This document shows positions 2,367 through 50,201 of a stretch of DNA of 64,000 bases, one piece after another. The position numbers and the translations under genes were made by a program. The stretch is from Christiangramia flava JLT2011 (GTDB taxonomy: Bacteria; Bacteroidota; Bacteroidia; Flavobacteriales; Flavobacteriaceae): assembly GCF_001951155.1 (NCBI RefSeq), contig NZ_CP016359.1, forward strand, positions 3,000,001 through 3,064,000, read 5' to 3'. The notes below the pieces were generated by a model, which was given only the letters and a program-made list of their open reading frames with translations, had not been told where the DNA came from and did no database searches. Numbering within the stretch: position 1 is the first letter of the stretch; every line of letters begins with the position of its first letter.

Positions 2367-2477
2367 TTATCTGGTGCAGCTATCTTTTGTATTTGTGTTT
2401 GATTTGATAAGTTTCGAAGCTGGTGATCCATTTACTTCTTTTAGAGCTGTATGCATTACCTTTTGATGTGTTTTCAT
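2367..2477 (-). CDS. Small ORF directly after foldback structure (36 aa, uncertain)
   Basis: The ATG at 2477 lies four bases after the foldback arm on the minus strand. The peptide starts MKTHQKVMHTALKEVNG and is basic and hydrophilic. E2 has a 135-residue gene, and E3 a 28-codon ORF, in the equivalent place after their own foldbacks. An overlapping frame (2192-2431) competes. Coding potential is weak. Confidence 0.2.
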   Translation of the reverse strand: MKTHQKVMHTALKEVNGSPASKLIKSNTNTKDSCTR

Positions 2478-2573
2478 AATCAGAATTTGAAATTAGATAC
2501 GGTATTATAAAAAGCAAGGCGGCTTTATGCAGACCGCTAATTTCAAATTCTGTAATTGTAAATCAAAAGGTAA
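2456..2573. other. Foldback structure S of E1
   Basis: Two nested perfect inverted repeats are present: outer TTACCTTTTGAT (2456-2467)/ATCAAAAGGTAA (2562-2573) and inner CAGAATTTGAAATTAG (2481-2496)/CTAATTTCAAATTCTG (2537-2552). The loop carries TTATAAAAAGCAAGG and then GGCTTTATGCAGACC. Similar loop words occur at 45752-45816 (E2) and 50119-50201 (E3) between arms of unrelated sequence. No protein explains it. It may be an RNA leader, a single-strand DNA origin or a protein-binding cruciform. Confidence 0.6.
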
Positions 2574-2676
2574 GGCTCGGAAAGTAAATTTTCGCGAAAT
2601 CAAATCGCTTCTCACAGTAGAGAGTTAGTAATGAAAACGAATCAAGCGGACGCTAGTCAAAAATCAATTTTTGGCT

Positions 2677-2708
2677 TGGGTTCAAGATAATTTGAGCGCG
2701 CCTCTTTA
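2677..2708 (+). repeat. Non-coding repeat shared with E2 (copy R1)
   Basis: The segment beginning TTGGGTTCAAGATAATTTG and ending GCCTCTTT resembles two E2 segments at 43978-44010 and 44200-44233. Similarity continues downstream (TATAGCGGAAAATGG against TGTAGCGGTAAAGTG). It lies in a stretch of E1 without convincing genes. Confidence 0.5.
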
Positions 2709-2881
2709 ATCGTTTGGAGTATAGCGGAAAATGGTTAAAGTGGTAAGCAACCAAGGCTTAATTTTCATTTTTTAGTAAAAAACATATCATTTTTACTGGG
2801 CTGAGAGCATTTTTTACTAAAACTTCTTCTCAAAATTTTCAGTAATTCTATAATTTAAAATCAAATGGTGTCAATTCGAGT

Positions 2882-2950
2882 CAAATTAAGGAGGGAATAA
2901 TCCATAACATCGCGCAGCGTGTTATCCTCTTGCTATTCCCCCTTAATTTG
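2882..2950. other. Candidate origin of transfer of E1
   Basis: Long inverted repeat arms, CAAATTAAGGAGGGAATA (2882-2899) and TATTCCCCCTTAATTTG (2934-2950), enclose a small hairpin CGCGCAGCG and GTGTTATCCTCTTGCT. The block 2905-2934 matches 41979-42009 of E2, which lies just upstream of E2's mobilisation genes. The match and the inverted-repeat architecture point to a relaxase recognition and nick region, though the nick itself is not located. Confidence 0.55.
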
Positions 2951-2971
2951 CTTCGAAAAGCGGTTTGGATT

Positions 2972-3178
2972 TTAATATTTGTAATATCCTTTTTTTTCAA
3001 GGAAAAATATTATGCCAAATGAAATAAGAGATAATCCCAAAAAAAGGAAGAAGGAATATATATACTGACCGAAATTGAAATAATCGATTAAAACAAAAAG
3101 ATCTATCACTGATATCGCTAGAATTAATGCTAGACAAAAAGTGAGGGAGTATAATCCAAATAATTTTATGCTTTTCAT
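2972..3178 (-). CDS. Small two-helix membrane protein
   Basis: 68 residues from the ATG at 3178 (MKSIKLFGLYSL). A longer frame reaches 3250, but its extra residues look non-native. Two hydrophobic segments, about residues 5-28 and 38-58, are separated by a short DYFNFGQ loop. The C-terminus is basic (EKKGYYKY). No family is recognised. It may be a cargo protein of the minimal element E1 or an inner-membrane orphan. Confidence 0.45.
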   Translation of the reverse strand: MKSIKLFGLYSLTFCLALILAISVIDLFVLIDYFNFGQYIYSFFLFLGLSLISFGIIFFLEKKGYYKY

Positions 3179-3263
3179 ATTATATAATTTTAACAGCGTG
3201 TCGCGATTCCTGCATGCGCGACCAAACAACATGCTGTACTTATTCCACAAGAATCATAAGATG

Positions 3264-3980: not shown

Positions 3981-3995
3981 TTCTGCCACCCCGAC
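3981..3995 (+). repeat. att copy 2 (E1/E2 junction)
   Basis: TTCTGCCACCCCGAC repeats the tRNA 3' end with one change (TTCTGCC for TCCTGCC). It carries no other tRNA sequence. Confidence 0.85.
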
Positions 3996-4018
3996 TAATT
4001 ATAGTATCAATCTATAAT

Positions 4019-4248: not shown

Positions 4249-5514
4249 ATGAAAACATCTTCCACCTTCAGTATTTTGTTCTGGGCAGACTTCTCCAGGG
4301 CAAAAAATGACCAAGCATCAATTTACGCAAGAATTACGGTAAATGGTAAACGGGCTACCATCAGTTTAAAACGAAAAGTTTTAGTGTCTGATTGGGATGT
4401 CCATAAAAACAGAGCTCGGGGAACAAGCCAAAAATCAAGAATCCTTAATAGCTATTTGGATGAAACTTACAATCATCTGTTTAAATGTTATCGCGATTTA
4501 ATGAATGAGCATAAATTGATTACCGCACAGGTAGTTAAGGCTCGATACTTCGGTAATGACGAAAATAATCGCTCCATTACAGATATTATCAATTACCATA
4601 ATGAAGATATGGTAAACAAATTAAAGTGGGGAACACAAAAAAATTATTACACTACACAGAGTTATATCTCCAAATTTTTATCGAAATCCTATAAGACCAC
4701 AGACCTTTATTTACGGGAACTTGATTATCACTTTATCATAAAGTTTGAGAAATATCTCCGGGACTACATACCAGAAGACCATCAAAAGCCAATGGGCAAC
4801 AATACCGTAATGAAGCATATCGAGCGTTTTAGAAAGATGATAAATTTATCATTTAAATTGGGTTGGATTCAACGAGACCCGTTTATCAATTTCAAATCTA
4901 AATTCATTAAAAACGAAAGGGGCTTTTTAAATCTCGAAGAGCTTCAAGAGATAGAAAATAAACAATTTAGCATTCCGAGATTGGAATTGGTAAAGGATTT
5001 ATTTGTTTTTAGTTGCTATACCAGTTTAAGTTATATCGATGTCATCCATTTAACTACGGATAATATCTGTATTGGAATTGATGGTGAACTTTGGATTTAT
5101 TACAAACGAGAAAAGACGACAAAGCCCATACGAATACCTTTGTTGCCAAAGGCGATGCAAATTGTTGAAAAATACAAGAGCAATCGTAAATCAATATCAC
5201 AAGGAAGTATATTTCCTAAAATCTCAAATCAAAAACTAAATTCTTATTTAAAGGAAATTGCCGATGTCTGCGGTATTAAAAAGAACCTCACTTTCCACAT
5301 TGCTCGACATACATTTGCTACAACGGTTACATTAAGTAATGGGATGCCCATTGAGACAGTTTCAAAACTATTGGGTCACTCCCGAATATCTACAACCCAA
5401 ATTTATGCCAAGGTTATTGAACGTAAAGTGAGTGATGATATGCAAAAATTAAGGGCCCAATTCAATGAGATAGAAAATGAATCTATCTCAAAAGTAGCAT
5501 CTCAAAATTCATAA
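4249..5514 (+). CDS. E2 integrase, IntDOT-like tyrosine recombinase
   Basis: 421 residues with the same three-domain layout as the E1 and E3 integrases. The catalytic set is visible as HIARHTF (H-x-x-R), LLGHS and TQIYAKV (Tyr nucleophile). The first Arg position is again Ser (TSLSYIDV), as in IntDOT. A 20-residue C-terminal extension (NEIENESISKV) is unique to this copy. The ATG follows the regulatory dyad directly. It should catalyse integration and excision of the whole 42-kb element at the tRNA-Pro core. The ORF6N gene follows 20 bases downstream and may be cotranscribed. Confidence 0.95.
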   Translation: MKTSSTFSILFWADFSRAKNDQASIYARITVNGKRATISLKRKVLVSDWDVHKNRARGTSQKSRILNSYLDETYNHLFKCYRDLMNEHKLITAQVVKARYFGNDENNRSITDIINYHNEDMVNKLKWGTQKNYYTTQSYISKFLSKSYKTTDLYLRELDYHFIIKFEKYLRDYIPEDHQKPMGNNTVMKHIERFRKMINLSFKLGWIQRDPFINFKSKFIKNERGFLNLEELQEIENKQFSIPRLELVKDLFVFSCYTSLSYIDVIHLTTDNICIGIDGELWIYYKREKTTKPIRIPLLPKAMQIVEKYKSNRKSISQGSIFPKISNQKLNSYLKEIADVCGIKKNLTFHIARHTFATTVTLSNGMPIETVSKLLGHSRISTTQIYAKVIERKVSDDMQKLRAQFNEIENESISKVASQNS

Positions 5515-11541: not shown

Positions 11542-13944
11542 TTAAGAATTAATAAATATTTTAATGGCTTTCTCCATATCTTGATGTTTTTCAAAAAGCT
11601 TCATAATGTCTTCGCTTTCTTTGCCATCCGTGAGGTAAGCAGCAAAGACTTCGGGCGGTACTTCCAATCGGAAAATGTTGCTTTCCTTTCCTATTTTGAT
11701 GAACATTTCGGTATATTTTCGTGTTCCTGTAAGGTTGTTACGAATGGATTTTAACTGGTTTAAATCGTGACTGGACAGGTTGAGCCTGTTTTTTAATTCG
11801 GTATAGCCTTTTTCATTACGAAGGCTGTAAATTACTTGGGTGTTTTCAAGAATGCTTGCCGATGTAGAATTGTTGGGTAATTGGTTGATGGATTGCAGAA
11901 TGATACCAATTGCGCCATTCTGTTTTCGAATCGCTTGGTAGTAGAATTCCACACTTTCCAGTACATTTCCGAATTTGAGTTGTTTGGCAAACTCGTCGAA
12001 TAGGATGATTCCCCTTTCGGCTTTATTTCTCCAAATGGTTCTTTGAATGGCAGATTTAATCAGCTTCAACATTACGGAAAGGATTTCCTTGTTGTCCTTA
12101 ACTTCATCGAGTTCAAAAACGATTAATCTTTTATCTTCAATTTTATAGGTCTGGTCTTCACTCACGTTGAACAAAAAGCTATACAAACCATCATCTACAT
12201 ATTCTGAAAGGATGTGTAAAAAATCATAGATGTTGAAATGTTGCTCTTGAATATGCAACTCCTTTAAGAGAGTGTCCTTTTTAGCATCGACGAACTGGTA
12301 CAGGTTTTCAAGGGAATGTGTACTATCTACATTCTGTAGATAGTAATATCGAAGCACTTTTTTGACTGCAACTTCTTCAGCTTTTGTAGTTTCCTTTCCT
12401 GAAGCTAAAAGTTCCAAAAGGAAGATTGCCAAATCTTCCAATCGCTCTGGTGTCAAATCATTGACATCAGAAATATAGAATGGATTGATACCCAAATTTT
12501 TTCCCTGTTCATAGCGAAGGATGATATGGTCGTTTGGATAGAGCTTGGCGAATTTTGAATATGAACCACCTAAATCAATAATGACCAGTCGGACGCCGAC
12601 CTCGAAGTACTGCCGTAGAATATTGTTTGCCAAAAAGGATTTTCCTTCTCCCGTAGGTGCAAAAATGGCAAAATTTCGAGCCTTGATGCGTTTCTTCTTT
12701 TCATCCCACACATCCTTTAATACCGGAATGTTATGTTGCCTATCATTAAAGATGACACCTTTGGCATCCGATTGATAATTGGTATTGTTGATATACAGGC
12801 AAAGAGCGTGTTTTAAATCGGTTACGTATAAATCCTCATTAGAAAAATTGGAAGTAAAACAGCAATATGAGTTTAAGAAATATTGCTTGCGTTCTTCGCC
12901 TTTTGGATAATAAGGCACTATATCCAATTCTTTGAACTCGGTTTTTATCTTTGAAGCAATTCTTTCTAATTGTGCTTCATCTTTATCCCAGAATATAATA
13001 TTTAGATGACCCCTAATAATTCTTGAACTATCGTCCTCATTGATTTTGGTAACAATGTCTTCAATCTTCTTTAAGATGACTTTGTTCTGTGTTCCAAAAT
13101 TGGAACTCTTTTTGAGTTCTTCAATTTTCTTGTCCAACAGCTTTCGCCATTTGTGCTTATCATCCAAATAAATGATTTGGTTGACAATATGATTTTCATT
13201 GAGATTCAACCCTAATCCGTCAATAAATCCTTGGTGGAATACAAAGTCGTCCGAAGTAAATTTATCATTGGTCTTGCTACTCTGAATCACATCGCCATAA
13301 CACAATTCGCTATTGATGGCCAGCACATCAAAATGATGGTCGCCAATTTCAATATTCGCTTTTTTCAATTGAATGTCGGTATCAAATCCTTCGTTGAATC
13401 CATTAAAATAAGCATTGGTCAATGACAGGACTTTATCGATACCCAAAGGCATCAATGACACTTTCCGGCTGTTATTTACAAAGGAAACGGCATCGTTAAC
13501 AGAAGCAATAAATTCCTGAACGTTATGGTCCATTTGCTTATGAATGCCCTTTTCGACCTTGCGGAATGGGTTGGTAAACTTCGGTGCGTTCAAAGCTTTA
13601 TTGTGCGGAAGTATAAAGAATAGGTAAGAAGAGTGTTTAATGTATTCCCGACCTTTAAAATAATCGTGTGTGGCACGTTGCAAAAAGCTTTTGTTCGGAA
13701 GTTCTTCCGCCAAATATTCAGCTTTCTGATAGATGTCCTGTTTGTGGATAACCGTGGCAATAGGCAATGATTTAAACGCTTGAAACCACGAACCGTGAAT
13801 ATCCTCAAAATCTTTTTCCGCGAGGGAATAGATTTCAGGATTGTCCACTTGATAGCCCAATACCACATTGCCGTTATTAGCGAACAGGATATGGTCTTGA
13901 ATATCCAAAATAGGATGATATGCTGATAGGTTAATTTTCTTCAT
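11542..13944 (-). CDS. traG: Conjugation ATPase TraG (VirB4 family)
   Basis: 800 residues, the full length of the family. Walker A is PTGEGKSFLANN at about residues 430-440 and Walker B is GIILFDEFAKQL at about 645. Later phrases AIRKQNGAIGIILQSINQLP and LENTQVIYSLRN are typical of VirB4/TraG of Bacteroidota. It powers substrate passage and pilus assembly at the inner membrane. The N-terminal 250 residues form the usual VirB4 N-domain. It is the signature gene of a MPF type B transfer system. Confidence 0.95.
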   Translation of the reverse strand: MKKINLSAYHPILDIQDHILFANNGNVVLGYQVDNPEIYSLAEKDFEDIHGSWFQAFKSLPIATVIHKQDIYQKAEYLAEELPNKSFLQRATHDYFKGREYIKHSSYLFFILPHNKALNAPKFTNPFRKVEKGIHKQMDHNVQEFIASVNDAVSFVNNSRKVSLMPLGIDKVLSLTNAYFNGFNEGFDTDIQLKKANIEIGDHHFDVLAINSELCYGDVIQSSKTNDKFTSDDFVFHQGFIDGLGLNLNENHIVNQIIYLDDKHKWRKLLDKKIEELKKSSNFGTQNKVILKKIEDIVTKINEDDSSRIIRGHLNIIFWDKDEAQLERIASKIKTEFKELDIVPYYPKGEERKQYFLNSYCCFTSNFSNEDLYVTDLKHALCLYINNTNYQSDAKGVIFNDRQHNIPVLKDVWDEKKKRIKARNFAIFAPTGEGKSFLANNILRQYFEVGVRLVIIDLGGSYSKFAKLYPNDHIILRYEQGKNLGINPFYISDVNDLTPERLEDLAIFLLELLASGKETTKAEEVAVKKVLRYYYLQNVDSTHSLENLYQFVDAKKDTLLKELHIQEQHFNIYDFLHILSEYVDDGLYSFLFNVSEDQTYKIEDKRLIVFELDEVKDNKEILSVMLKLIKSAIQRTIWRNKAERGIILFDEFAKQLKFGNVLESVEFYYQAIRKQNGAIGIILQSINQLPNNSTSASILENTQVIYSLRNEKGYTELKNRLNLSSHDLNQLKSIRNNLTGTRKYTEMFIKIGKESNIFRLEVPPEVFAAYLTDGKESEDIMKLFEKHQDMEKAIKIFINS

Positions 13945-28726: not shown

Positions 28727-28913
28727 AATTTAATAAAAAAATAGATTTGATGGGGCACTATTGTGCTTCGTCAGTTCTTTATAATAAGACCTGAAACTTA
28801 TCTTCAGATAACAATACATTAAAATTAAAATAGTGGAGTTATAATCTTACAAACCCACATAGATTGTTGACTAACAACATACCGTCTTCTTTCTTGTGTG
28901 AGATTATTTTGCC

Positions 28914-29823: not shown

Positions 29824-30136
29824 GATTTTCTAAACTTGTTATACTGTTAGCTTTTAAAATTTATAAAAGAGGAGCAACCACAACTGACCTTTGTTTTTGC
29901 TCTCCATAGTTTCACACATATAGGTAAGTTCCAACCTTATTTTATGAGTAAAAACATAACCCAGTCCTACAGCGAGCCAATCACAATCAAATAGTATAAT
30001 TCCCCCGATATTAGGACAGTAAGTTAAGTTTAATTTTTAACCTTAAATTTACTGTGTCATGAGTAGAAGAACTAATAGAAATGGGATGCATCTGAATATT
30101 CAATTATACATAAGGAGAAACCTTGTTTCGTTAGGT
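29824..30136. other. Intergenic region, possible insertion-sequence debris
   Basis: Holds an imperfect inverted repeat (GGACAGTAAGTTAAG near 30013 against CCTTAAATTTACTGT near 30041) directly followed by a 28-codon frame MSRRTNRNGMHLNIQ. This resembles the end of an insertion sequence with the start of a transposase frame, but nothing more is preserved. Otherwise no feature is seen. Confidence 0.25.
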
Positions 30137-30592: not shown

Positions 30593-30616
30593 TCGCCAAA
30601 TGGTTTATTAATAGAG

Positions 30617-31981: not shown

Positions 31982-32108
31982 TGCGTTGATTTCTCAGGTT
32001 ATATTTTAAATATGTGTACTGGCAGTATTCTCTAAAATATTTACCAAAAAAGCTACGATTAGCAGTAACACTGCCAATTCTGTATAATTGCTAAGTACAT
32101 ACAATTTA

Positions 32109-34409
32109 TTAGAATCGAACAGTCAAACCAGCACCTCCTCCAAAACGACTATCGTAACTTGCCATTAAAGAAAAATCTCTAGATAAAAAATATTCTGCAC
32201 CAGCACTCCATAAGGACTCACCTTGAAAATTATTACCATTGGGCAAAGTATTTACCCACCCAAAATCAAAAGTATATTCATAGTACCCGAAAGCCGAAAA
32301 CTTTTTAAATAACATAATATTCCTCCCAATACCAATTCTAGGACGTAATTGACTATCTATTCTAGCATCTAGAGAAAATAGATATGGAGTTAAAAAACGG
32401 ATTCCTGCTACAGCAGTTGTGGTAAAACTATCATAGCTATCACGTGTTGCATTCTCTATATTAACACCACCAAAAACACTTAGATAGTCATAAAGGTATC
32501 TTTGATACGTAAATTCTGCTTCCATATTTTTGTTCCAACCAAACTCCGCACCCAAGTTAAATTGATTTCGAATATCCGAACTAACTAAGTTGATACGCCC
32601 TAAATTTGAAGCAGCATCAACAATTCCCCAAGTAAAAAATTGATCAGTATCAGCAACTGCAGTAGATGCTGGAAATTCCTTCATACGGGGATCTCTTGGT
32701 GTTCCATAACTTACAACACGAGCCATTCCTGCCTCAAGATGATATAATATATGACAATGAAAAAACCAATCGCCATATTCATTACCATAAAACTCTATGG
32801 TAATCTTAGACATTGGCGGTACATTTACCGTATGTTTTAGGGGGGAATACTCCCCATTCTCATTAATAACCCTAAAAAAGTGACCATGTAAGTGCATAGG
32901 ATGATGCATCATAGTAAGGTTATTAAATGTAATACGAGTTACTTGATCGCCTTCAATCTTAATTTTATCTGCCTCTGATAGTGGTATTCCGTTCATACTC
33001 CAGATATAACGTTGCATATTCCCAGTAAGATTGAGCAAAATTTCTTTAACAGGCACATCCTTATTATATGCGGTTTTATTGGGGGATTTTAAATAGTCAT
33101 AATTATATTCTGAAAAAGGATTCATCCCTTTCATGGAACTCATTTTTGGTTCTTTTTTCATGTCCATTTCACCTTTCTTCATATTCATGTTATCCATGTC
33201 GTCATTAGGTTTATTTACTTTGCTATCCATTGGCATCTTGCTCATTTCCTTCATAGCTTTGCCGTCCTTCATTCCCCAATTTGCTGCCATTTTATAAGGA
33301 TCATCAATGTTTGGCCTATATTTTAATGCTGGTGCTCCCATCCTCATTTTCATTTTCGCTATCTTTTGCATTAAGGCAATTTTATCTGGTTTTGGAACTT
33401 CTGGGGCTGGATAGATTTTTCCACTTCCAAGAAAGGTCGATGCTGTTCCTGAACCATCTTGGGACGTGATTTTGAATTCTATTTTTCCATCTTGTGGTAT
33501 TGTTACTATATAATCATAAGTTTCAGCAATACCTATGAAGGTCTTGTTATGCTTAACTGGCACTACATCTTTTCCATCTGCCGCTATCAAAATAGGGTCT
33601 TCACCACCAAAAGTTATCCAAAAAGAAGTAGAAGCCCCACCATCAATAACACGTAAACGTACTTTCTCTCCAGGTTTAAACTCTGGGTGTTCGGAGGTTT
33701 GCTCACCGTTAATTAAAAATGCTGGATAATAAATATCAGCTATATCAGCACTATTCATACGTTGTTTCCAAAATTTTAATTGGGCACCCAATGCTCCTCT
33801 GGCAATCACTTTATTTAGAGGCGTAGAAGTTCCTTTTCTTAAATTATACCATTCAGAGCCTCTTTTTAAATAACGCAGAACGGTTTTAGGTTTTTCGTTA
33901 GTCCAATCAGATAACATTACAACCAATTCTTTATCATAGTCTAATGTTTTTTCTTTGGGTTGTATAACTATAGACCCATAAACCCCACTTTGTTCTTGTA
34001 AACCAGTATGGGAATGATACCAATAAGTTCCATTTTGTTTAATAGAGAACTCATAGGTAAATGTTTCCCCTGGCTCAATAGGCGGAGTTGAGATATAAGG
34101 TACTCCATCATAGAAGTTTGGCAATAATAATCCGTGCCAGTGAATTGAGGTTTCCACATCCATATTGTTTTTGACATGGATTATGGCATATTCACCTTCA
34201 ATAAACTCTAGGGTAGGACCAGGTATTTGACCGTTAATTGTCATACCCATAACATCTTTTCCTGCTTTGTTTACAATCTTTTGATCGATGGTCAATGTAT
34301 ATTCATGTACAGGAAGATTTTCAACATTTCCTTCTACAGACATTTCATCGATTTGTGCTTGTCCAATAAGTCCTGCACATAGAAATAGTGTTAATAATAG
34401 TGTTCTCAT
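32109..34409 (-). CDS. Multicopper oxidase (CopA-like) fused to CopB-like outer-membrane barrel
   Basis: 766 residues. Signal peptide (MRTLLLTLFLCAGLIGQAQ). Cupredoxin domains carry the copper ligands HWHGLLLPN, WYHSHTGLQ, HPMHLHGHFF and WFFHCHILYHLEAGMARV. Between the second and third domain is a Met/Lys-rich stretch (about residues 355-440). After about residue 590 the chain becomes beta-strand-rich (FNLGAEFGWNKNMEAEFTYQ ... GLTVRF) and ends in Phe, like the CopB barrel. Periplasmic/outer-membrane Cu+ oxidation is the expected role. CopA and CopB are separate genes in proteobacteria. Confidence 0.9.
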   Translation of the reverse strand: MRTLLLTLFLCAGLIGQAQIDEMSVEGNVENLPVHEYTLTIDQKIVNKAGKDVMGMTINGQIPGPTLEFIEGEYAIIHVKNNMDVETSIHWHGLLLPNFYDGVPYISTPPIEPGETFTYEFSIKQNGTYWYHSHTGLQEQSGVYGSIVIQPKEKTLDYDKELVVMLSDWTNEKPKTVLRYLKRGSEWYNLRKGTSTPLNKVIARGALGAQLKFWKQRMNSADIADIYYPAFLINGEQTSEHPEFKPGEKVRLRVIDGGASTSFWITFGGEDPILIAADGKDVVPVKHNKTFIGIAETYDYIVTIPQDGKIEFKITSQDGSGTASTFLGSGKIYPAPEVPKPDKIALMQKIAKMKMRMGAPALKYRPNIDDPYKMAANWGMKDGKAMKEMSKMPMDSKVNKPNDDMDNMNMKKGEMDMKKEPKMSSMKGMNPFSEYNYDYLKSPNKTAYNKDVPVKEILLNLTGNMQRYIWSMNGIPLSEADKIKIEGDQVTRITFNNLTMMHHPMHLHGHFFRVINENGEYSPLKHTVNVPPMSKITIEFYGNEYGDWFFHCHILYHLEAGMARVVSYGTPRDPRMKEFPASTAVADTDQFFTWGIVDAASNLGRINLVSSDIRNQFNLGAEFGWNKNMEAEFTYQRYLYDYLSVFGGVNIENATRDSYDSFTTTAVAGIRFLTPYLFSLDARIDSQLRPRIGIGRNIMLFKKFSAFGYYEYTFDFGWVNTLPNGNNFQGESLWSAGAEYFLSRDFSLMASYDSRFGGGAGLTVRF

Positions 34410-38831: not shown

Positions 38832-40277
38832 TCATTTTAGTTTAAAAACCGATTTAACTTCTCTATAAATTCGTTCAAAATTGAGCTTTAATTCATCAGT
38901 TGTGAAATGTTGATGAGGATTTGGTATTTCTCTTTGAATCGCTTGTAGTTTAAATTGAACTCTTTTATCCTCGCCATCAGCAAAAGTTATAAACTCGCCT
39001 TGTTTTAGACGGAAAAACACATCTGCCCTACGTTTAGAAACTTCTTTTTCGCCTGTGGTAATTCTCGTATCAAAATTTAGATTGTGCCCACGATTTATAC
39101 TTGTGGTTTCCATACGGACAATTTCAAAGAAACGCTCATAGTATTTTGCGGTATCAGGGTCATTGACCTTTCCGAAAAACTGATAGGAAAGATTGCTCAA
39201 AATAGCCTTACTCGCTTTGTCTCCATATAGCATATCATTCTGTATTTTATCCTGCATCACGTAAATTGTGGCAATATCATAGCTTCTTAAAGTTGCGGGA
39301 ATGCGGTGCATATTAAGTAGTTTTATGGTTGGGGCTTCTTCCATCATTAAAAATGACGACTGTTGACCTCTCACGCTCATTTGCTTGATGACTGTGTGCA
39401 TAATTGCAGCGATGATAGGCGAGTAAGCCGATTCATATTTGGGATGGTTCACGATGCAGATAACAGCAGGATTATCCTTGCTGTTAATATTCAATGGCAC
39501 TTCATCTTTTGACAAAGCCATAAACAACTGTTGTGAACCTATCTTTTTAAAGGCATTGGCCAATGTGCTTTTTACACCTGCCGTTTGCTTGTCAGAGTCC
39601 ATTCCGTTGATAAAAGCACTTGCCATACTTCGGGAAGTGATATTTGAGCTCACAAAAGCAACCAACTGTTTGGTAGCCATAGATTGAAAAATAGCAATCA
39701 AATGGGGCAGGGTGCAATATTGAGGATAGGACGTTTTTAGTTTCCAAATCATCCCACCCATCAAACCTTCTACAGCATCACTGAAGAATTTTGTGGTACT
39801 GTTTGTATTGGATTCGTTGAACTCCAAAAGGTTTTCAATAAGTACCTTGGATAATTCATTCACACTTTCCTCATTGGGTAAATATCTTGGGGCAATGGGG
39901 TTTACACGATAATGGATTTGGTCAAAAGCAATGGTATAGAATTTTACATCCTTTTCTTTAAATAATGGGTAGGCAATTTCGGTAAGTTCAAAATCTTTAT
40001 AATCGTGTATAATACCACAAAACTGGTGTTTGTTAAAATGTTGTAAAAAATTATAGATAACACTTTCCGTTTTACCGCTTCCCGCAGAGCCAATAATCGA
40101 TGCACCTCGCTTGATATTTTCGATTTTAAATTTTCCGCGTTGAAGTTTAAAGCGTACCTGATATTTCTTATCTCCGTTTATGGGTTCTTCCTGATGAAGA
40201 AACACATATAAAACTGTACTGACAAACAATACCGGAACAACAATAAAAAGGATGATATGTGGTATTGACATACTCAT
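38832..40277 (-). CDS. mobC: Type IV coupling protein (VirD4/TraG family; MobC of CTnDOT-like elements)
   Basis: 481 residues. One or two N-terminal membrane helices (IILFIVVPVLFVSTVLYVFL), Walker A GSAGSGKTESVIYNF near residue 65, Walker B SFLMMEEAPTIKL, and later IYVMQDKIQNDML and ILSNLSYQFFGKV. It links the relaxosome to the secretion channel. Its start overlaps the relaxase stop by four bases. The C-terminal end abuts the duplication scar. Confidence 0.9.
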   Translation of the reverse strand: MSMSIPHIILFIVVPVLFVSTVLYVFLHQEEPINGDKKYQVRFKLQRGKFKIENIKRGASIIGSAGSGKTESVIYNFLQHFNKHQFCGIIHDYKDFELTEIAYPLFKEKDVKFYTIAFDQIHYRVNPIAPRYLPNEESVNELSKVLIENLLEFNESNTNSTTKFFSDAVEGLMGGMIWKLKTSYPQYCTLPHLIAIFQSMATKQLVAFVSSNITSRSMASAFINGMDSDKQTAGVKSTLANAFKKIGSQQLFMALSKDEVPLNINSKDNPAVICIVNHPKYESAYSPIIAAIMHTVIKQMSVRGQQSSFLMMEEAPTIKLLNMHRIPATLRSYDIATIYVMQDKIQNDMLYGDKASKAILSNLSYQFFGKVNDPDTAKYYERFFEIVRMETTSINRGHNLNFDTRITTGEKEVSKRRADVFFRLKQGEFITFADGEDKRVQFKLQAIQREIPNPHQHFTTDELKLNFERIYREVKSVFKLK

Positions 40278-41852: not shown

Positions 41853-42341
41853 TTACTGTAAAAAATTGCCGTTTTATAGGGGGTTCAAAAGGATTTACTG
41901 TAAAACTTTATTATTCTTCTATCTTATATAAACAGTAATTATTTGAATATCAAATAACTACAACTAAAAACCAATCGTTAACACCGCCTTGGCGTGTTAC
42001 CCTCTTGCTTCTCCAAATTCGTCCCGCAGGGACAAAATTTTTCAAACAACCTGACTAAAAAGTCAGTTGCTTTTTTTCGGAATAGAAAATTCCGATATGT
42101 TTAATTTTTGGTGGGTATCATTATCGGCGAAAGTCAAATCAAAATGGGATAACGATACTTAAATTGATACTGCTTAACAGTCTTTTAAAGATATTCTATT
42201 TAGATATAATTCTGAAATACAGATTGTTTCCAATTGGTTTGTTTTGATACCAAAAAATAGGATTTTTATGAAAAAGTAAATTTAAGACGTCGAGTTTCAG
42301 AATAGTGGCTCTTAATATTGTGAAAAAATAAGACACAAAAA
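41853..42341. other. Candidate origin of transfer region of E2
   Basis: 489 non-coding bases upstream of the mob operon, rich in hairpins: AACACCGCC-TTGGCG-TGTTA (41981-41998), GTCCC-GCA-GGGAC, AACCTGACT-AAAA-AGTCAGTT, CGGAAT-AGAAA-ATTCCG. The block 41979-42009, ending GTGTTACCCTCTTGCT, matches E1 at 2905-2934. Also holds one inverted copy of the integrase-upstream motif (42128-42140) and TTTTGATACCAA (42242-42253). Confidence 0.6.
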
Positions 42342-42592: not shown

Positions 42593-42973
42593 TTAATATT
42601 CGCTTGTTAGCATCAGCGTATTATCCACAAAATATAAACGCAGTTCATCCAAAGGAAAATCCGTAAAGTTGTATCGATGTGTTTCTAATATATTACCATT
42701 TCCATCGCTGTAAATTATTTCAGCTTCATAGCCTGTATAATCCTGTTTTTCTTCCGATAGCCTTTTAAAATCTATTGTGATAAAATGACTTCGGTTCAAT
42801 AAACTTTTGGCAATTACAGAAACATCTGTGATGAGCCAAAAGCAGTCCGCTATATTGGCTAAATATTTCAATCCGTTTGTAAATCGCGTGCGTATCAATG
42901 GGATTTGATAGAACATTTCAGAACCGTGAAAATGTTGCAATCCTTCTTTTATTTCGTTAACTTGTGCTTTCAT
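42593..42973 (-). CDS. DUF6876 family protein
   Basis: 126 residues from the ATG at 42973 (MKAQVNEIKEGLQHFHGSEMFYQIP). Phrases YTDGVKYLA-like (FTNGLKYLANIADCFWLI) and HRYNFTDFPLDELRLYFVDNTLML are typical of DUF6876 proteins of Bacteroidota plasmids and elements. Soluble, function unknown. It lies in the ssb/DUF932 accessory block found near the mob end of such elements. Confidence 0.8.
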   Translation of the reverse strand: MKAQVNEIKEGLQHFHGSEMFYQIPLIRTRFTNGLKYLANIADCFWLITDVSVIAKSLLNRSHFITIDFKRLSEEKQDYTGYEAEIIYSDGNGNILETHRYNFTDFPLDELRLYFVDNTLMLTSEY

Positions 42974-43007
42974 TGTAATGTCTTTTTTAGAATTAATGAT
43001 GAAAAGA

Positions 43008-43050
43008 AGAGGGCACAAACTAATTGAAAACTGGTATTAGTGCCCTCTTT
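43008..43050 (-). terminator. Terminator after ssb
   Basis: AGAGGGCAC (43008-43016)/GTGCCCTCT (43040-43048), a strong 9-base stem just past the ssb stop. Overlaps the leader of the next gene. Confidence 0.7.
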
Positions 43051-43391: not shown

Positions 43392-44349
43392 AATACAAGG
43401 TTTTAAAAGATTAATATTTCCCTTTCATTTTAAACTGAATTAAATTTTAAGGGGTGTTTGTATGATTTCTTTCGTGCTCCGCACAATGGATGAAGTGGGT
43501 TTTGTCAAGACTTTTAGGGAACAAATCAGGTGTGTTTGCGACGTAGTAAAATCCTTGGATTTTCAAGGAAGTAGAAACCCTATTTTTCACTAAAACTTGT
43601 ATAGTCTTGACAAGTTCCATAATGGCATTAGCAATTCTTATAAAGTCATTTGTGGCGAGAGCGTACCGGCAGTTAAGCGAACAGAGCAAATGGGTTTATT
43701 TTAGAATTGGTTATGCCATACCTGTTTTTCGTTGTCCCGAAAAACAATAAAGGCTTCATCCATTATAAACCCCTTAAAATTTGTAAGGCAAAGGTTCGGT
43801 TTTTAAGAATTATCGAGCAAAGACCAAAGTAGGCTTTGCCGAGAATTCTGTTAAGAAAATCGAGGCTTTGAATTTCCGATGAGAAGCGGACTTGATTCAC
43901 GGTTTTGGCTCGGGAATGTAGCGCTCCAACCCAGCGCAGCGGGTAGGGGTAGCGGAATGGAAAGCCAAAAACGGGGATTGGGTCCAAGATTTTTTGTAGA
44001 GAGGCTCTTTGCCCGAAATGAAGCTTTTCGCGAAATGTAGCGGTAAAGTGCTGAACGGTTTATAAAACGTATTATTCTTTTGAAGTAGGATTTAAAGCGG
44101 ACATAACTTTAAAGATGTAGATTGAAATAGAGTTTGACCACTTCCCGAATTTTCTCGGGAATGAGTGGGCAAGTGGAATGGAAATCGGAATCTTTGAAGT
44201 TGTGTCCAAGACCTTTTTTGAGTGAAGCTCTTTTTCCGAAATGTAGAGCAACGAAATGTAGGGAAATGTGCTAAACGGAATAATATGGCAGAAGTATAAT
44301 TAAAAATCCAGTTTAGTTAGGTACTGGATAAACCTTTTACAATCTTTCC
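43392..44349. other. Long non-coding region with repeats
   Basis: Nearly 1 kb with higher GC than the rest of E2 and no convincing gene. It contains two diverged copies of a block of about 75 bases starting TTGGGTCCAAGATTTTTTG (43978) and TTGTGTCCAAGACCTTTTTT (44200) and ending AAGTGCTGAACGG and ATGTGCTAAACGG. E1 has a third copy at 2677. Other words repeat too (GAAGCGGAC, TTTTGGCTCGGG). It could be a structured RNA, a maintenance site or part of the replication origin. Confidence 0.5.
43447..43689 (-). CDS. Hypothetical ORF (80 aa), uncertain
   Basis: A frame starting MLCSLNCRYALATNDFIRIA with normal composition. No family is recognised, and it lies at the edge of the repeat-rich non-coding region. 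Kept only as a possibility. Confidence 0.25.
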   Translation of the reverse strand: MLCSLNCRYALATNDFIRIANAIMELVKTIQVLVKNRVSTSLKIQGFYYVANTPDLFPKSLDKTHFIHCAEHERNHTNTP

Positions 44350-45186
44350 TTAAACCATTGCGTATATTTCATCAAACAAGACCTTATCCAACTTTTCCTG
44401 TTGCGAAAAAGTCTTTTTCAAGGTATTGTGAAGCATCCAATTAAAGGCATTATATCCATCCCATAATGTGGGCGTTGTATGGTAATCGTGCCCTTCTTCT
44501 GCAATCATATCCAATAATTCCCTAGATTTCTTTGAAGGATTATCGTTTTTGTCGCTACATTCATATCGGAACAGTTTCGTTTTTTCCAATATCTCCTTTA
44601 CGAATGCTTTGGTGTCGATAAGTTCGATTTCTTCCATTTCCCTGAATTTTCTTGTGATTTCGTAGTATTCGTTATTCAGAAACTTCTCAAACAACAAATT
44701 CAGTTTTGGCATTATTAAATCCGTATTGTTCTTGCTGTGCTTTATTGAAAATGCTATTTCTGATTGAGCAACGTGCAAGCCATTGGTGCATACTTCTCTA
44801 TAAAACCCAAAATGCCCAGAAGTCTTTTCGCTTCCATCATAGGAATTTTTGAAACGCAACATCGGTAATATCTTATCCTGTTCATTCTTCAACGAAAACT
44901 GATTATCATCCTCGATTATAAAGTCGGTAATGAAAGACCTGTCATTTCTGTTAATCGTGCGTTTATGATATTTCAGATTGGCATCCAGCAATAGCTGTTC
45001 GGCTTTTTTGAAGAACAGTTCATTTGGAATATGGCCATAACTGTTCGAGACCACATTCACAATCTTTCCATTGGAAATAATGGCATTTTCAAGCCCTCTT
45101 CGAGATTCCATACCAGTAATGCTTTTTAACGATTTCATTTCATTTGAAACGAAAATTTCATCTTGTTGTAAACGATTTAAATACAT
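44350..45186 (-). CDS. DUF932 family protein
   Basis: 278 residues. Phrases IPNELFFKKAEQLLLDANLKY, FGFYREVCTNGLHVAQSE and WDGYNAFNWMLHNTL fit the DUF932/phage-plasmid-like family, widespread on plasmids and conjugative elements of Bacteroidota. Soluble, role unknown, possibly linked to element maintenance or DNA metabolism. It is transcribed separately from ssb, across the long non-coding region. Confidence 0.85.
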   Translation of the reverse strand: MYLNRLQQDEIFVSNEMKSLKSITGMESRRGLENAIISNGKIVNVVSNSYGHIPNELFFKKAEQLLLDANLKYHKRTINRNDRSFITDFIIEDDNQFSLKNEQDKILPMLRFKNSYDGSEKTSGHFGFYREVCTNGLHVAQSEIAFSIKHSKNNTDLIMPKLNLLFEKFLNNEYYEITRKFREMEEIELIDTKAFVKEILEKTKLFRYECSDKNDNPSKKSRELLDMIAEEGHDYHTTPTLWDGYNAFNWMLHNTLKKTFSQQEKLDKVLFDEIYAMV

Positions 45187-45279: not shown

Positions 45280-45687
45280 TTAAAGTTCAAATTGTACAAT
45301 CTGTTCTTCAATCTCTGATTTACGTTGTTCCAAAGTGGACTGTAAATGGGTAGTGACCAACTTTATTAAATTCGTATTGGTCGTCTTGAATTCCAGATTA
45401 CGTGAGTCCCTAATATGAAAGGAACTTGAATCATCCTGATTGTAATTAAACTTTGTAAGCTCGTTCAATGTTTCCGTCAACCGTTCACGTTGATTGGCCA
45501 AACCTCTCAATTTTTCAAACTTTTGAATTCTGTCATCCAAATTAATCTCTGGTTTTTTGGCTACCACGGGCTTTTCTGGTGTAACAGTTTTTCCGATAGC
45601 TTCCTCGGTCAACTTCTTTTGAACTTCCTTTTTAATGGTTGCATTTACTTTTTTTGCTGTTCCGTTTGATTTTACTTTTGTTTCCAT
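45280..45687 (-). CDS. Coiled-coil element protein (135 aa)
   Basis: Lys-rich N-terminus (METKVKSNGTAKKVNATIKK), a Pro/Val linker (TPEKPVVAKKPE), then a helical charged domain (DDRIQKFEKLRGLANQRERLTETLNEL). Resembles small helical proteins regularly found next to DUF932 genes in these elements; no function is known. The foldback structure at 45752-45816 lies 65 bases upstream of its start and may be its leader or promoter. Confidence 0.7.
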   Translation of the reverse strand: METKVKSNGTAKKVNATIKKEVQKKLTEEAIGKTVTPEKPVVAKKPEINLDDRIQKFEKLRGLANQRERLTETLNELTKFNYNQDDSSSFHIRDSRNLEFKTTNTNLIKLVTTHLQSTLEQRKSEIEEQIVQFEL

Positions 45688-45751
45688 AATTAAATGATTT
45701 TAGATTAAACAATATTTGAGCAAAACCCAAACGGAAGACAAAATTTTAGAG

Positions 45752-45816
45752 CGGAAAGGAAACGGAATATAAATAAGCGAGGGAAGAAGCGTTGGCTTTA
45801 TGCCGTCCCTTTTCCG
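45752..45816. other. Foldback structure S of E2
   Basis: Arms CGGAAAGGAAACGG (45752-45765) and CCGTCCCTTTTCCG (45803-45816) pair at 12 of 14 positions. The interior holds ATATAAATAAGCGAGG and GGCTTTATGCCG. Equivalent to 2481-2552 in E1 and 50119-50201 in E3, with unrelated arm sequence. Confidence 0.55.
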
Positions 45817-46119
45817 AAAAATATTTTGCGACGTTTATATTTCGGTAATATTGTATGAATACTCTCTACCTCAAATTTTCCTATGGAAATTAATTCCTTT
45901 TAAAACCAATTATGAAGTAGTTAATTACTCAATTTTAAGTACTTAAGGAATGATTGATAGAAGATTTATTGGTAATGGTGAGAAGGCATAATAGACCGGA
46001 ATTGTTACAGTATTAATACACTAAAATAAATGACTTTTTATGTTGGTTTGAAATAATACAAATGATATATTTGCACTATCAGAAAGTAAAGCAATTTACT
46101 ATAAGTTCATTTATAATAT

Positions 46120-46139: not shown

Positions 46140-46197
46140 GTTATGTCTCGGAATCTGTAACTGATTGATATATATAATATTATGGGGAAAGGGTATA

Positions 46198-46213
46198 ATC
46201 CTGCCACCCCGAC
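46198..46213 (+). repeat. att copy 3 (E2/E3 junction)
   Basis: ATCCTGCCACCCCGAC, identical to the tRNA 3' end. Confidence 0.88.
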
Positions 46214-46427: not shown

Positions 46428-47645
46428 ATGCCTAATTACACTACCTTTTCCGTATTATTCTTTGTCCGAAAACATCATGATGAGACTAAGAAATTATTTA
46501 TCTACGCCCGGATTACTGTTGATGGAAAACGTTCCGAAATCAGTTTAAAAAGATCTATTCCGGTGAATCAATGGGACGCCTCAAAAGGACGCGCGAGAGG
46601 AACTTCTCCAAAATCCCGCATTTTAAACCAGTATCTGGACCAGGTTTACAATAAATTATTAGACTGTCATAAACAGTTGTCTTCTGAGAATAAAGTAATC
46701 TCCGCTCAGAGTATCAAAGCTCGTTTCTATGGGAAGGATGATCAGCAGAAAACCTTATTGGAGCTTATGGATTATCATAATTCTCACATGAAAAATGTGT
46801 TGAAGCCCGGAACTCTTAAAAACTATTATACAACTGAAACCTATTTAAAAGAGTTTTTAAATAAGCAAATGAGCTGCAATGATATTAACCTCAGACAGAT
46901 TAATTACCGGTTTGTAACCGACTTTGAACAGTTCTTACGCAAGTATTCTGCAAGGGTCTCCAGAAAGACTTGTGGCAATAATGGTACTATGAAGCATTTG
47001 GAACGTTTAAAAAAAATGCTCAATCTGGCCATTAAACTGGAATGGCTGATGAAAAATCCTTTTGACAAATTTAAATTCCGCTTTGAAAAGAATGAACGGC
47101 AGTATCTAACTAAGCGTGAGCTTCAAATATTAGAGACTACCGAGTTTACCAGAAGTAGTTTGCAAAAAGTTAAAGATATTTTTGTTTTCTCATGCTATAC
47201 GGGTCTTTCCTACGTAGATATTAAAGAGCTAACCATTCATCGGCTCGTAAAGGGAATTGACGGCAGTAATTGGATCTATACCAAACGAGAGAAAACAGAT
47301 GAAGCTGTGAAGGTACCATTACTCCCTCAGGCAGAACTTTTATTAAATAAATACAGGAATCAAATTACTTCCGATGATTATTTGTTTCCAGTATGTTCTA
47401 ATCAAAAGATCAATAAATATTTAAAGGAGATTATGCTGCAATTGAAAATAAAAAAGACCATAACCTTTCATTCTGCCAGGCATACTTTTGCCACCACGGT
47501 AACTTTATCTAATGGAGTGCCTATTGAAACTGTTTCCAAGCTATTAGGACATTCCAAATTATCCACTACCCAGATCTATGCCAGGGTGATTGATTCTAAA
47601 ATATCCAATGATATGGAATGTTTAAAAAAAAAATTAATGAATTGA
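46428..47645 (+). CDS. E3 integrase, IntDOT-like tyrosine recombinase
   Basis: 405 residues, clearly homologous along its whole length to the E1 and E2 integrases. Catalytic residues are seen in HSARHTF, LLGHS and TQIYARV; the first Arg is again replaced by Ser (TGLSYVDI). It should act on the same tRNA-Pro core but on its own arm sites, since the subterminal repeats of the three elements differ. The last codons abut a convergent small membrane ORF. Confidence 0.94.
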   Translation: MPNYTTFSVLFFVRKHHDETKKLFIYARITVDGKRSEISLKRSIPVNQWDASKGRARGTSPKSRILNQYLDQVYNKLLDCHKQLSSENKVISAQSIKARFYGKDDQQKTLLELMDYHNSHMKNVLKPGTLKNYYTTETYLKEFLNKQMSCNDINLRQINYRFVTDFEQFLRKYSARVSRKTCGNNGTMKHLERLKKMLNLAIKLEWLMKNPFDKFKFRFEKNERQYLTKRELQILETTEFTRSSLQKVKDIFVFSCYTGLSYVDIKELTIHRLVKGIDGSNWIYTKREKTDEAVKVPLLPQAELLLNKYRNQITSDDYLFPVCSNQKINKYLKEIMLQLKIKKTITFHSARHTFATTVTLSNGVPIETVSKLLGHSKLSTTQIYARVIDSKISNDMECLKKKLMN

Positions 47646-47910: not shown

Positions 47911-48176
47911 GAAAAAGAGATATTTAAGTGTTAAACCAGTATCTGAACTAATCTATGAAATGGGTGCAAAATACTTTTCTCTCTTAAAAATAAAGTGGAG
48001 TATTAGTAATAATATATTATGGGAAAAATTGAAATTAAAAGAATCGGCAGGGATATTTCGCTAAAAGCAAAAAGTGGCACGTAATAGGGACTAGCCACAT
48101 ACGAGTAATGCAGGAAAATATAAATAGGTTAGTAAAAAAGAATGCACCATCAGCCGGTATTGATGAACAATAAATT

Positions 48177-48212
48177 AAAAGCACTGAACAATAATAGATT
48201 GTCAGTGCTTTT
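48177..48212 (-). terminator. Terminator after the lipoprotein pair
   Basis: AAAAGCACTGA (48177-48187)/TCAGTGCTTTT (48202-48212), 11-base stem usable on both strands. The gap 47823-48263 otherwise holds only the REP-like repeat and a 21-codon scrap at 48019 (MGKIEIKRIGRDISLKAKSG). Confidence 0.7.
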
Positions 48213-48263
48213 AATCTGAGAATACGTTGAATAATTTAGTATTGTATGATCACCAAAAATTAT

Positions 48264-48707
48264 CTAGTCACCTTCACTAAGCGAAAAGCTACCATCACCA
48301 TTGAAGGATTCTAAAGTAATGGTAACGGACCAAATTCCAGGGACACCTGTAGAAGTTGTTCCTGAAAAGCTATCAGGCTCAGAACCACCATCCAGTGATT
48401 TATCCAGAACCATAGTTCCGTTGGCATCTTTTACTATCATTCTAAATGTTCCCTGCGAAGTAGCCGTAATATCGGCATTATAATCTGCTGTATTTAAAGC
48501 ATTTCTCCATTGAAATGTTCTGGTTACACTCCCACCATTTCCTGTGAAATCACCATCAATATCACCATTGAAATCGCCAACATCTTCAAACAAAGCCTGA
48601 CCATTTACCCTGATAGTAGCATTGCTTGAATTATCATCATCACTACTACATCCAACTATTATTGTTACGAGGGAAAATATGAGAAGAATTTTTTTAGTAA
48701 GTTTCAT
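48264..48707 (-). CDS. Secreted lipoprotein, beta-rich
   Basis: 147 residues. Signal MKLTKKILLIFSLVTIIVGC, lipid Cys at 20, followed by the SSDDD stretch that marks surface-exported lipoproteins in Bacteroidota. The mature part is Gly/Asp/Thr-rich (NGDIDGDFTGNGGSVTRTF, TGVPGIWSVTITLESFNGDGSF) and reads as a small beta sandwich. No named family. It lies 17 bases after the PepSY-like lipoprotein gene, in the same operon. Confidence 0.8.
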   Translation of the reverse strand: MKLTKKILLIFSLVTIIVGCSSDDDNSSNATIRVNGQALFEDVGDFNGDIDGDFTGNGGSVTRTFQWRNALNTADYNADITATSQGTFRMIVKDANGTMVLDKSLDGGSEPDSFSGTTSTGVPGIWSVTITLESFNGDGSFSLSEGD

Positions 48708-48724
48708 TTATATAGATTTTTAAG

Positions 48725-49480
48725 TTAATCATTTTCATCTTCGCCTTGATCATCATCATCTTCTCCATTTCCATCTTCTGCGCTAACGAAATTTCCATCC
48801 TCATCGAATTCAAGCTCTATACCGTTGTCTAATGTTACTTCATAAGATCCATCATCTTCTATTTCTGCTTCAATAATGGTCTCTTCAGGATAGTTCGCAC
48901 TGATATAATCTTTAATTGCCTGAGGTAAATTATCTGGATGGATATCCGTGTCATCCTGGTCATCATCATCTTCATTCTCGTCATGAGCGATTCCAAGAAA
49001 ATTTCCATTGACATCAAAAATTAATTCGATGCCATTGTCCAATTCTATTTCATAATGCCCATTACTTTCCCTTTCAGCCTCGTCAATGCCAACCCCTGGA
49101 AAGTGCTCGTCTATGAAATCCAGTATGTTCTCGGGTAATTCGGATACCTCCAAATCTTCATCTCCAAAATCATCTTCTTCATCTCGGTCTTCACCTAAAA
49201 AATTACCTTGCGAATCAAATATTAACTCAGTATTGTCACTTAAGGTAATTTCAAAATTATTATTATCCTCAACTTCAGCTTCTATAATAGTCAGGCCAGG
49301 ATAGTTGTTGGTAATAAATTCCAGAATGCTCTGGGGTAGTGAAGAAGTTCTGACGTGAGCATCTGCTGTAAATGCAATAGCATTCAAATTATCTTCAGTG
49401 GCATTTTCCTCTTCGGAAGAACAAGCTGAAAGTAGAAGGAGCCCACATACAGTTAAAGTAAGTGTGGTTAAGTTTTTCAT
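48725..49480 (-). CDS. Acidic lipoprotein with three PepSY-like repeats
   Basis: 251 residues. Signal ends LLLLSAC, then SSEEE. Three repeats of about 55-60 residues share the pattern LP-x2-I-x2-FI-x3-(Y/F)PG-x-I-x-EAE-x-E-x(N/D/S)-x2-(F/Y)E(I/V)-x-L-(D/S)-(N)-G/T-x-EL-x-FD-x2-GNF. This is the PepSY-like/DUF2874 fold of secreted Bacteroidota proteins. Linkers are runs of Asp/Glu, including the C-terminus (GEDDDDQGEDEND), suggesting Ca2+ or metal binding. Cell-surface role unknown. Confidence 0.85.
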   Translation of the reverse strand: MKNLTTLTLTVCGLLLLSACSSEEENATEDNLNAIAFTADAHVRTSSLPQSILEFITNNYPGLTIIEAEVEDNNNFEITLSDNTELIFDSQGNFLGEDRDEEDDFGDEDLEVSELPENILDFIDEHFPGVGIDEAERESNGHYEIELDNGIELIFDVNGNFLGIAHDENEDDDDQDDTDIHPDNLPQAIKDYISANYPEETIIEAEIEDDGSYEVTLDNGIELEFDEDGNFVSAEDGNGEDDDDQGEDEND

Positions 49481-50118
49481 TTTTAAGTGTTTAGATTAGA
49501 GCAAATAATTTATTATTTCTATAAAGCAAATTAATAATAAATATTATCCCAAAAATAGAACTTTTTTTTAAAACACTAATTTTAATAGGAATAGGATCAG
49601 TATCATGAAGTTTTACCCTTTTTTTAAATATTCCTTATTAAAATAGCTTTAGAACGGTAGCAGATTTTAAAGCCGTTTGGTGGAGGTATGTAAAGAATGA
49701 AAAAGGGGAAATAACGCTTTTACCTGCATTTCCCCTCTTTTATTCCACTTGGGGGTGACCCTTTGTGGATTAAACTAATTAAAAGTTTACAGCGATTTTA
49801 AAGATACAAATAATTCTTTGCAACCTCCGGGCGCAAAGCAAGATTGTCATGACAATGACACATCTTGCTTTGTTGATTTTTTGAAGTTAATAATTTACTG
49901 GAAAGGCCGATGCGAATCCCCTGTATGAACCATTATTTTTAAATGGTTTACGTAAATCCCTGGTCTTACGGTTCATATTAAAATTTACTTTTTTTATCCT
50001 GAGCACTTTCCTTTTTTTAATCAGTTACAATTTTTGAAAACAGAAAACCTTTCAATTATTGAATTTAATTTACTTCTCTCAGAGCCTTCGCTACTACCTT
50101 TTTTCATGCCACCATATT
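49481..50118. other. Intergenic region of E3
   Basis: Contains a hairpin GGGGAAAT (49705-49712)/ATTTCCCC (49728-49735) with T tail, the second REP-like repeat (49818-49875), and a dyad ATGAACC (49924-49930)/GGTTCAT (49970-49976) enclosing AACCATT-n7-AATGGTT. A 28-codon ORF on the minus strand (50021-50107, MKKGSSEGSERSKL) follows the foldback structure. No confident gene. Confidence 0.4.
49818..49875 (+). repeat. REP-like palindromic repeat, copy 2
   Basis: TTTGCAACCTCCGGGCGCAAAG then GCAAGATTGT-n10-ACACATCTTGC (core 49840-49868). The outer 19 of 29 core bases are shared with copy 1 at the same spacing; the ten central bases differ. It flanks the lipoprotein pair in inverted orientation. Confidence 0.6.
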
Positions 50119-50201
50119 TAAGATTTAGAATTAGAAAAGGACTTATAAAAGGGCAAAGTATGAAGCCCGGTTTATGCAGTCCGGCTAACTTCTAAATCTT
50201 A
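50119..50201. other. Foldback structure S of E3
   Basis: Arms TAAGATTTAGAATTAG (50119-50134) and CTAACTTCTAAATCTTA (50185-50201) pair fully apart from one bulged base. Interior: TTATAAAAGGGCAAAG and a hairpin CCGG-TTTATGCAGT-CCGG. Equivalent to the structures in E1 and E2. Confidence 0.6.

Follow-up and report, generated by a model that had tools for sequence, protein, structure and literature searches.

The conjugative plasmids F and ColIb-P9 and their relatives carry single-stranded DNA (ssDNA) promoters, known as Frpo or ssi (Masai and Arai 1997 as cited in PMC9849209; PMC11541004), with ssb, the gene for single-stranded-DNA-binding protein, downstream and several such promoters per leading region (PMC9849209, PMC11541004). 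Two other described systems come close: the single-strand origins (sso) of rolling-circle plasmids and ICEBs1, which are structured and strand-specific and in which structure can outweigh sequence (PMC4595007), and the sgm-sRNA of Salmonella genomic island 1 (SGI1), a structured element near the origin of transfer (oriT) of a mobilizable island (PMC9299015). Here we describe foldback structures in three tandem mobile elements of Christiangramia flava JLT2011, all within a window of 64,000 nt (NZ_CP016359.1, positions 3,000,001–3,064,000) of its single-contig, 4.0-Mb genome. We propose, with a probability of roughly two in three, that the foldback serves as an ssDNA promoter or primer site on the conjugatively transferred strand (the + strand here), working like Frpo of plasmid F. 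At the level of sequence, this is supported by the fold, its covariation, a promoter-like box, the gene order, and the strand shared with an oriT-like block.

The likeness to Frpo/ssi, deduced for the foldback from its sequence, is that of a leading-region hairpin that would act as a promoter once the transferred strand has folded, with ssb downstream, and the presence of two kinds of hairpin (FB1 and E2-type, defined below) in one leading region recalls Frpo1 and Frpo2 of F (PMC9849209). The foldback differs in having a Bacteroidota-type −7 box instead of −35/−10 elements, an invariant tip, and free arms, and in being kept also in small elements without a downstream gene. No sequence relation to Frpo/ssi was found, as 570 bases around one member used as query (locus L091) had no match in 72,556 plasmid records at E 1e-5. 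From sso, whose sequences were not compared directly, the foldback differs in its linkage, in integrative and conjugative elements (ICEs), to ssb with a promoter-like box; the SGI1 element is a transcribed RNA (PMC9299015), whereas the strand, box, and gene order of the foldback point to ssDNA. Our literature search, judged partly by title and with subscription papers outside its scope, found no Frpo-like or other ssDNA promoter for Bacteroidota, and the word stem “bacteroid” is absent from the main text of a 2024 survey of Frpo leading regions (PMC11541004). A 2015 paper states that almost no knowledge existed, for any ICE, of how the DNA it transfers is converted to double strand (PMC4595007).

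The original prediction, made from the window alone, named three foldbacks, and all three are present on the + strand, one in each element. With their outer stems included, E1 spans 2454–2577 and E3 spans 50094–50226, and E2 at its widest pairing in the alignment spans 45707–45853; the extents first given (2481–2552, 50119–50201, and 45752–45816, respectively) captured the cores, but the true hairpins are longer, with a conserved outer stem in E1 and E3. RNA folding of the + strand gave z-scores of −5.79 for E1, −2.35 for E2, and −5.33 for E3 against 200 shuffles, and E2 is weak as single-stranded DNA (z −1.38, with 17 of 200 shuffles folding at least equally well). A pattern built from the words shared by the three has exactly 3 matches in the genome, all in the window and on the same strand, which is weak evidence because the pattern was drawn from those very foldbacks. 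Matches to it occurred in 23 of 299 genomes of the window's family (Flavobacteriaceae), a good part of them plainly unrelated and others with complementary arms of other sequence.

A covariance model built from ten copies (R1) matched 80 of 397 Flavobacteriaceae genomes at a threshold of E 0.001, and a second model (R2) matched 4 of 395 genomes of the phylum, C. flava included, the best 8 candidates per genome being scored in both searches; the family therefore looks concentrated in Flavobacteriaceae. Judged by these models, E1 (108.8 bits with R1) and E3 (96.0 bits with R2) are one hairpin family, FB1, found mostly in Flavobacteriaceae mobile elements, and their long arms, first described as completely different in sequence, align within it. 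At least 6 further FB1 copies lie outside the window in the C. flava genome, among the best 8 candidates scored with the covariance model, a limit that this genome reaches. After removal of 18 opposite-strand shadows or partial hits and 7 same-place repeats, the 78 R1 matches left 53 copies, and 51 of these were aligned, two with identical hairpin sequence being left out. Another 79 stretches (74 distinct), overlapping this first set in species, were taken from named records by the tip words alone; they come from Christiangramia, Zunongwangia, Salegentibacter, Aequorivita, Maribacter, and other genera, and also from Membranihabitans and metagenome-assembled genomes. The final scored set had 136 entries, 120 of them distinct copies.

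Across the 51 aligned copies, the foldback is a hairpin of about 130 nt made up of an outer stem, an unequal internal loop, a 12-bp variable arm, a short stem, and, without variation in the alignment, the tip TATAA...TTATGC. Of all cells, 93.0% pair, and 27 of the 36 pairs show two-sided changes, a result for which none of 500 shuffles reaches any of five covariation measures, and sliding the pairing partners leaves only 39–53% pairing. The shuffle counts are not probabilities because the copies are related, with an effective number of 13.1 at 75% identity. The covariation supports the claim of a selected structure, and the check suggested with it, a covariance-model search of Bacteroidota, did recover further homologues with compensatory changes. 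A protein-coding hairpin was also considered. One copy, read by eye, has an open minus-strand frame, but relatives differ by 1–2 bases in arm length, and the idea was dropped without a formal test.

The + strand folds better than the minus strand in 45 of 51 copies by DNA energies and in 50 of 51 by RNA energies, and G-T cells outnumber A-C cells by 127:35 in the structure derived from it, so that the + strand is favoured, not proven, as the strand that folds. An alternative explanation of the same data is a structured RNA, either a minus-strand leader of the ssb operon or a + strand small RNA for mobilization of the kind encoded beside oriT in SGI1, where it is essential (PMC9299015). Strong covariation and the near-uniform + strand advantage by RNA energies would be expected of such an RNA, and the “structured leader” of the original prediction is right about the position upstream of minus-strand genes; however, the opposite strand pairs better (a moderate preference), and on the minus strand the invariant T-G pair of the tip would become an A-C mismatch. 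A + strand RNA would leave the box unexplained, and no promoter was identified for it, although no systematic search was made. Rfam recognized only two tRNAs in the window at the gathering score and nothing at 10 hairpin loci up to E 1. We therefore hold a structured RNA to be improbable. The same Rfam result agrees with the earlier statement that no named family fits, but a functional precedent does exist in the Frpo/ssi ssDNA promoters.

The promoter-like box lies on the right side of the internal loop, which reads TATTTTGC in many of the copies that have ssb beside them (ssb-type copies). Promoter mapping in Flavobacterium psychrophilum gave TAnnTTTG as the main box and TAnnTTGY (SM5) as a second motif (PMC9723704), and the −33 element of F. 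johnsoniae promoters is weak (PMC6847099). Among the 31 ssb-type copies of the alignment, 17 have an exact TAnnTTGY and 1 a TAnnTTTG; counting either kind in 74 ssb-type copies, 54 have an exact −7-like box, 19 a loose one, and 1 none, compared with exact boxes in 3.3% of random 33-nt windows. The distance from tip to box is 25 nt in 51 of 62 exact-box copies, and the right side of the loop is more conserved (0.96 bits) than the left (0.42 bits). The complement of the left side contains an exact box in 0 of 51 copies, and therefore in double-stranded DNA no such box there points at ssb; read in this way, the 3′-arm box would point at ssb only when the + strand folds. Between hairpin and ssb, on the ssb strand, TAHHTTTG occurs in 0 of 74 copies. 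Within the window, E2 has TATTTTGC, a TAnnTTGY match (PMC9723704), on its 3′ arm (45822–45829, +), and the 3′ internal loop of E3 has TCCATTTG (50202–50209, +), one mismatch from TAnnTTTG.

With the hairpin on the + strand, the usual ICE gene order is coupling protein, relaxase, BfmA-like gene, a gap of 357–824 nt, RadC or DUF6876, ssb, leader, and hairpin, the genes from coupling protein through ssb all being on the minus strand. A minus-strand ssb starts within 700 nt to the left of the hairpin in 70 of the 110 copies that could be scored (those of the 120 with at least 600 nt of flank), and no ssb in any other placement was seen within 1.5 kb among these 110. In the first set ssb lies left of the hairpin in 33 of 53 copies, the ssb match starting 148–389 nt away, and in the tip-word set it starts 197–286 nt left of the tip in 47 of 66 copies with enough flank, with none placed otherwise. 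These gene contexts (ssb, mobilization genes, and the oriT-like block) support the suggested linkage of the foldback to mobile elements. Between hairpin and ssb, for example at L091, 54 of 74 ssb-type copies encode a small basic open reading frame (ORF; MGSKSK...KENAxDIISKS), open for at least 35 codons in 50. A repeated motif left of the hairpin, ATTTACTT..CCTTTT, falls inside this ORF in ssb-type copies, and by eye the reading frames differ in E1-type copies. A direct repeat, ATTTACTTnnTT..GC..TTnCCTTTT, stands left of FB1 at about 2356–2388 and 2430–2472 of the window; E1-type, E3-type, and ssb-type copies all retain it.

All 18 ICE contexts inspected by eye share, in the gap next to the mobilization operon, a conserved block consisting of an inverted repeat like AACATCGC-GCGTGTTA followed by CCTCTTGCT (inverted repeat + TCTTGCT), preceded in most of the 18 by a pair of direct repeats. 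In its strict form the block occurs within 3 kb of 77 of the 120 copies, 65 times to the left of the hairpin and 12 times to the right, and for 43 it was not found in the DNA covered; it is on the hairpin's strand in 77 of 77 cases and never on the opposite one. By its make-up and place this block is probably oriT. In the usual order of an oriT, the nick follows the inverted repeat, and if that order is valid here, the + strand would be transferred, entering rightwards, and the ssb operon would be the leading region, pointing back to oriT as in F. Putative oriT blocks of this kind lie at 2906–2934 (+) in element 1 and at 41980–42009 (+) in the ICE, where it separates the mobilization operon from the ssb side. 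E1 precedes its block by 330–430 nt and is close to the 3′ end of the strand presumed to be transferred.

The foldback might instead itself be oriT or part of the relaxase recognition site, an idea prompted by its co-occurrence with the oriT-like block in ICEs and small elements alike. The block, however, adjoins the mobilization operon and is the more oriT-like of the two, and the foldback lies up to about 2 kb from it, on either side and away from that operon, which makes this alternative very unlikely. A cruciform bound by an integrase or excision factor, the “recombination cruciform” first suggested, would suit the location of E2 and E3 within about 0.5 kb of right att copies. It is not supported, given the absence of any clustered-family integrase from the 18 ssb-type contexts (0/18, 3 kb either side), and a structure acting in double-stranded DNA would leave the strand shared with the oriT-like block (77/77) unexplained; an integration cruciform was rejected on gene order, and we give this explanation almost no weight.

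Some further features accompany the oriT-like block. Ahead of it in the window, at about 2768–2822, is the direct-repeat pair TTTTTTAGTAAAA / TTTTTTACTAAAA, with counterparts such as ATTTGTCGCAAAT in ICE gaps. A long palindrome, CAAAGCAAGAT...ATCTTGCTTTG (49834–49872, also at L080 and L177), stands where E3-type relatives have the block and is a candidate variant oriT or terminator. Another hairpin class, whose 3′ loop has TTTTAAAnCTTTGTG or a close variant (L101, L114, L116, L125–L127, L132, L139, L140, L158, L162, and L171), has the block 357–449 nt to its left in 10 of 12 loci and ssb in 0 of 12.

From these features we infer an oriT, nicking, transcription, and priming, as follows. The MobB relaxase would nick at the inverted repeat + TCTTGCT block, and the + strand would enter the recipient 5′ end first. 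There the foldback would fold into a double-stranded stem with its invariant tip, placing in most ssb-type copies the −7-like box (TATTTTGC) on the 3′ arm within the internal loop; the arms would act as a promoter spacer, and for this reason their pairing would be kept while their sequence is free. Host RNA polymerase would then start at the foldback and copy the 5′ arm and the flank beyond, yielding in ICEs, before a second strand exists, mRNA for ssb and RadC or DUF6876, and from an E2-type copy mRNA for p135 and DUF932; the same RNA may also prime second-strand synthesis. In double-stranded DNA the hairpin promoter would be off because the same box then points away from the ssb-side genes.

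In small elements without a downstream gene, such as those of E1 and E3, the foldback may be mainly a primer site (sso). The lack of an exact box in oriT-block copies without ssb suggests this division, with promoter and primer combined in ICEs and mainly a primer in small elements, and E1, lying near the 3′ end of what would be the transferred strand, has no leading gene for a promoter to serve but would be well placed as a primer site. This is the weaker half of the proposal, and the “replication or single-strand origin” among the options of the original prediction comes close to the whole.

Several observations weigh against the proposal. By DNA energies the + strand is only modestly preferred (mean −22.3 vs −20.4), and the ratio of G-T to A-C is just 54:35 in pairs found from both strands and 54:54 in the minus-strand-derived structure. 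The tip is more conserved than the box, yet has no explained partner, and conservation of the right loop side is not above that of the arms (0.98–0.99 bits). No −33 element was recognized at normal spacing, and the motifs SM4-6, TAnnTTGY among them, are ascribed to probable alternative sigma factors (PMC9723704). As TAHHTTTG is expected by chance in only about 3% of copies each, its absence from all 74 leaves room for an ordinary ssb promoter elsewhere. There is no ssb beside 40 of the 110 scorable copies, and no FB1 precedes the ssb of the window itself (R2 with filters off; best other match E 0.11). An exact box is missing from all 30 copies (27 none, 3 loose) in which the oriT-like block occurs without ssb, the kind to which E1 and E3 belong, and for them the promoter part fails.

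A competing explanation is a single-strand origin that solely primes the second strand (through RNA polymerase, DnaG, or a primosome), ssb having its own promoter. In its favour, copies without a downstream gene retain the outer stem, the arms, and the tip, whereas most of them lack the box, and the position and strand of the foldback fit, as does the place of E1 before its oriT-like block; the sso of ICEBs1 is orientation-specific, and that of pBAA1 works with other sequence of the same structure (PMC4595007). A pure origin accounts neither for the box of ssb-type copies, with its constant spacing, nor for the fixed place before ssb, and we consider it unlikely, though the best of the alternatives.

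The ssDNA promoter and primer remains our preferred explanation, and if it is true, the foldback lets the host copy early protective genes or the second strand while the element enters as a single strand. Whether Bacteroidota conjugative elements have their own ssDNA promoters, with a sequence-free spacer and a box on the arm that points at ssb only in the folded transferred strand, and the hairpin without an exact box starts the second strand in small mobilizable elements, is to us an evenly balanced question; if so, a single fold would set the sequence of entry, early expression, and double-strand conversion. With box and oriT predicted and ssb downstream, the hairpin family makes the second-strand question testable in a large group of marine and soil bacteria, and the hairpin can mark the transferred strand, leading regions (with possible anti-defence genes), and small mobilizable elements.

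E2 is matched by neither R1 nor R2 and is a separate sub-family, sister to FB1. A strict E2-type pattern matched 3 of 388 genomes; among relatives reached through neighbouring genes, the foldback precedes p135 in 3 of 5 rows and DUF932 in 6 of 9. In the alignment of 8 of 9 rows (the near-identical L051 left out), the tip of all 8 copies retains GGCTTTATGCCG or a close variant, and the 3′ arm has TATTTTGC in 3, CATTTTGC in 1, and TATTTTAC in 4; a hand count of the alignment output gave 18 G-T cells vs 1 A-C. At least six E2-type loci also carry FB1 (L050, L051, L087, L113, L123, and L148). The window's ICE deviates from the usual gene order in that the E2 foldback precedes p135 (45280–45687, −), which lies directly downstream of it, and DUF932 (44350–45186, −). 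The gene p135 had no Pfam or NCBIfam match and has relatives in other elements. The minus-strand ORF originally noted beside each foldback is thus upheld for E2, but the very short ORFs beside E1 and E3 have no gene support.

The three elements are delimited by the tRNA-Pro 3′ end (ATCCTGCCACCCCGAC), which stands at 530–546 (+), the left boundary of element 1, and recurs as copies or cores at 3983–3996, 46197–46213, and 50415–50430; these four sites indicate three elements integrated in tandem, with one foldback each, as originally claimed. Each has a tyrosine recombinase gene at its left end, at 746–1966 (+) in element 1, 4249–5514 (+) in the ICE, and 46428–47645 (+) in element 3; their domains fit the IntDOT-like type, to which we take them to belong. 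The middle element is an ICE by its conjugative-transposon TraG ATPase (11542–13944), coupling-protein-like ATPase (38832–40277, −), MobB family relaxase (DUF5712, NF041495; 40274–41335, −), and BfmA/BtgA family mobilization protein (NF041200; 41304–41852, −), followed by the DUF6876 gene (42593–43018, −) and ssb (TIGR00621; 43056–43391, −). In the outer two small elements no relaxase was noticed in the ORF lists, and no search aimed at relaxases was made.

An inverted repeat lies at 43700–43769, near the window's ssb. Beyond it is a second foldback family, FB2 (43886–43989 and 44097–44211, also 2646–2686), whose variable arms run between GCGGACT at one base and GTGTCCAAGA, or a close variant, at the other; many relatives have it to the right of FB1, in some cases in tandem. 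The ICE cargo at 26628–34409 includes a histidine kinase, an amino-acid permease, and a multicopper oxidase.

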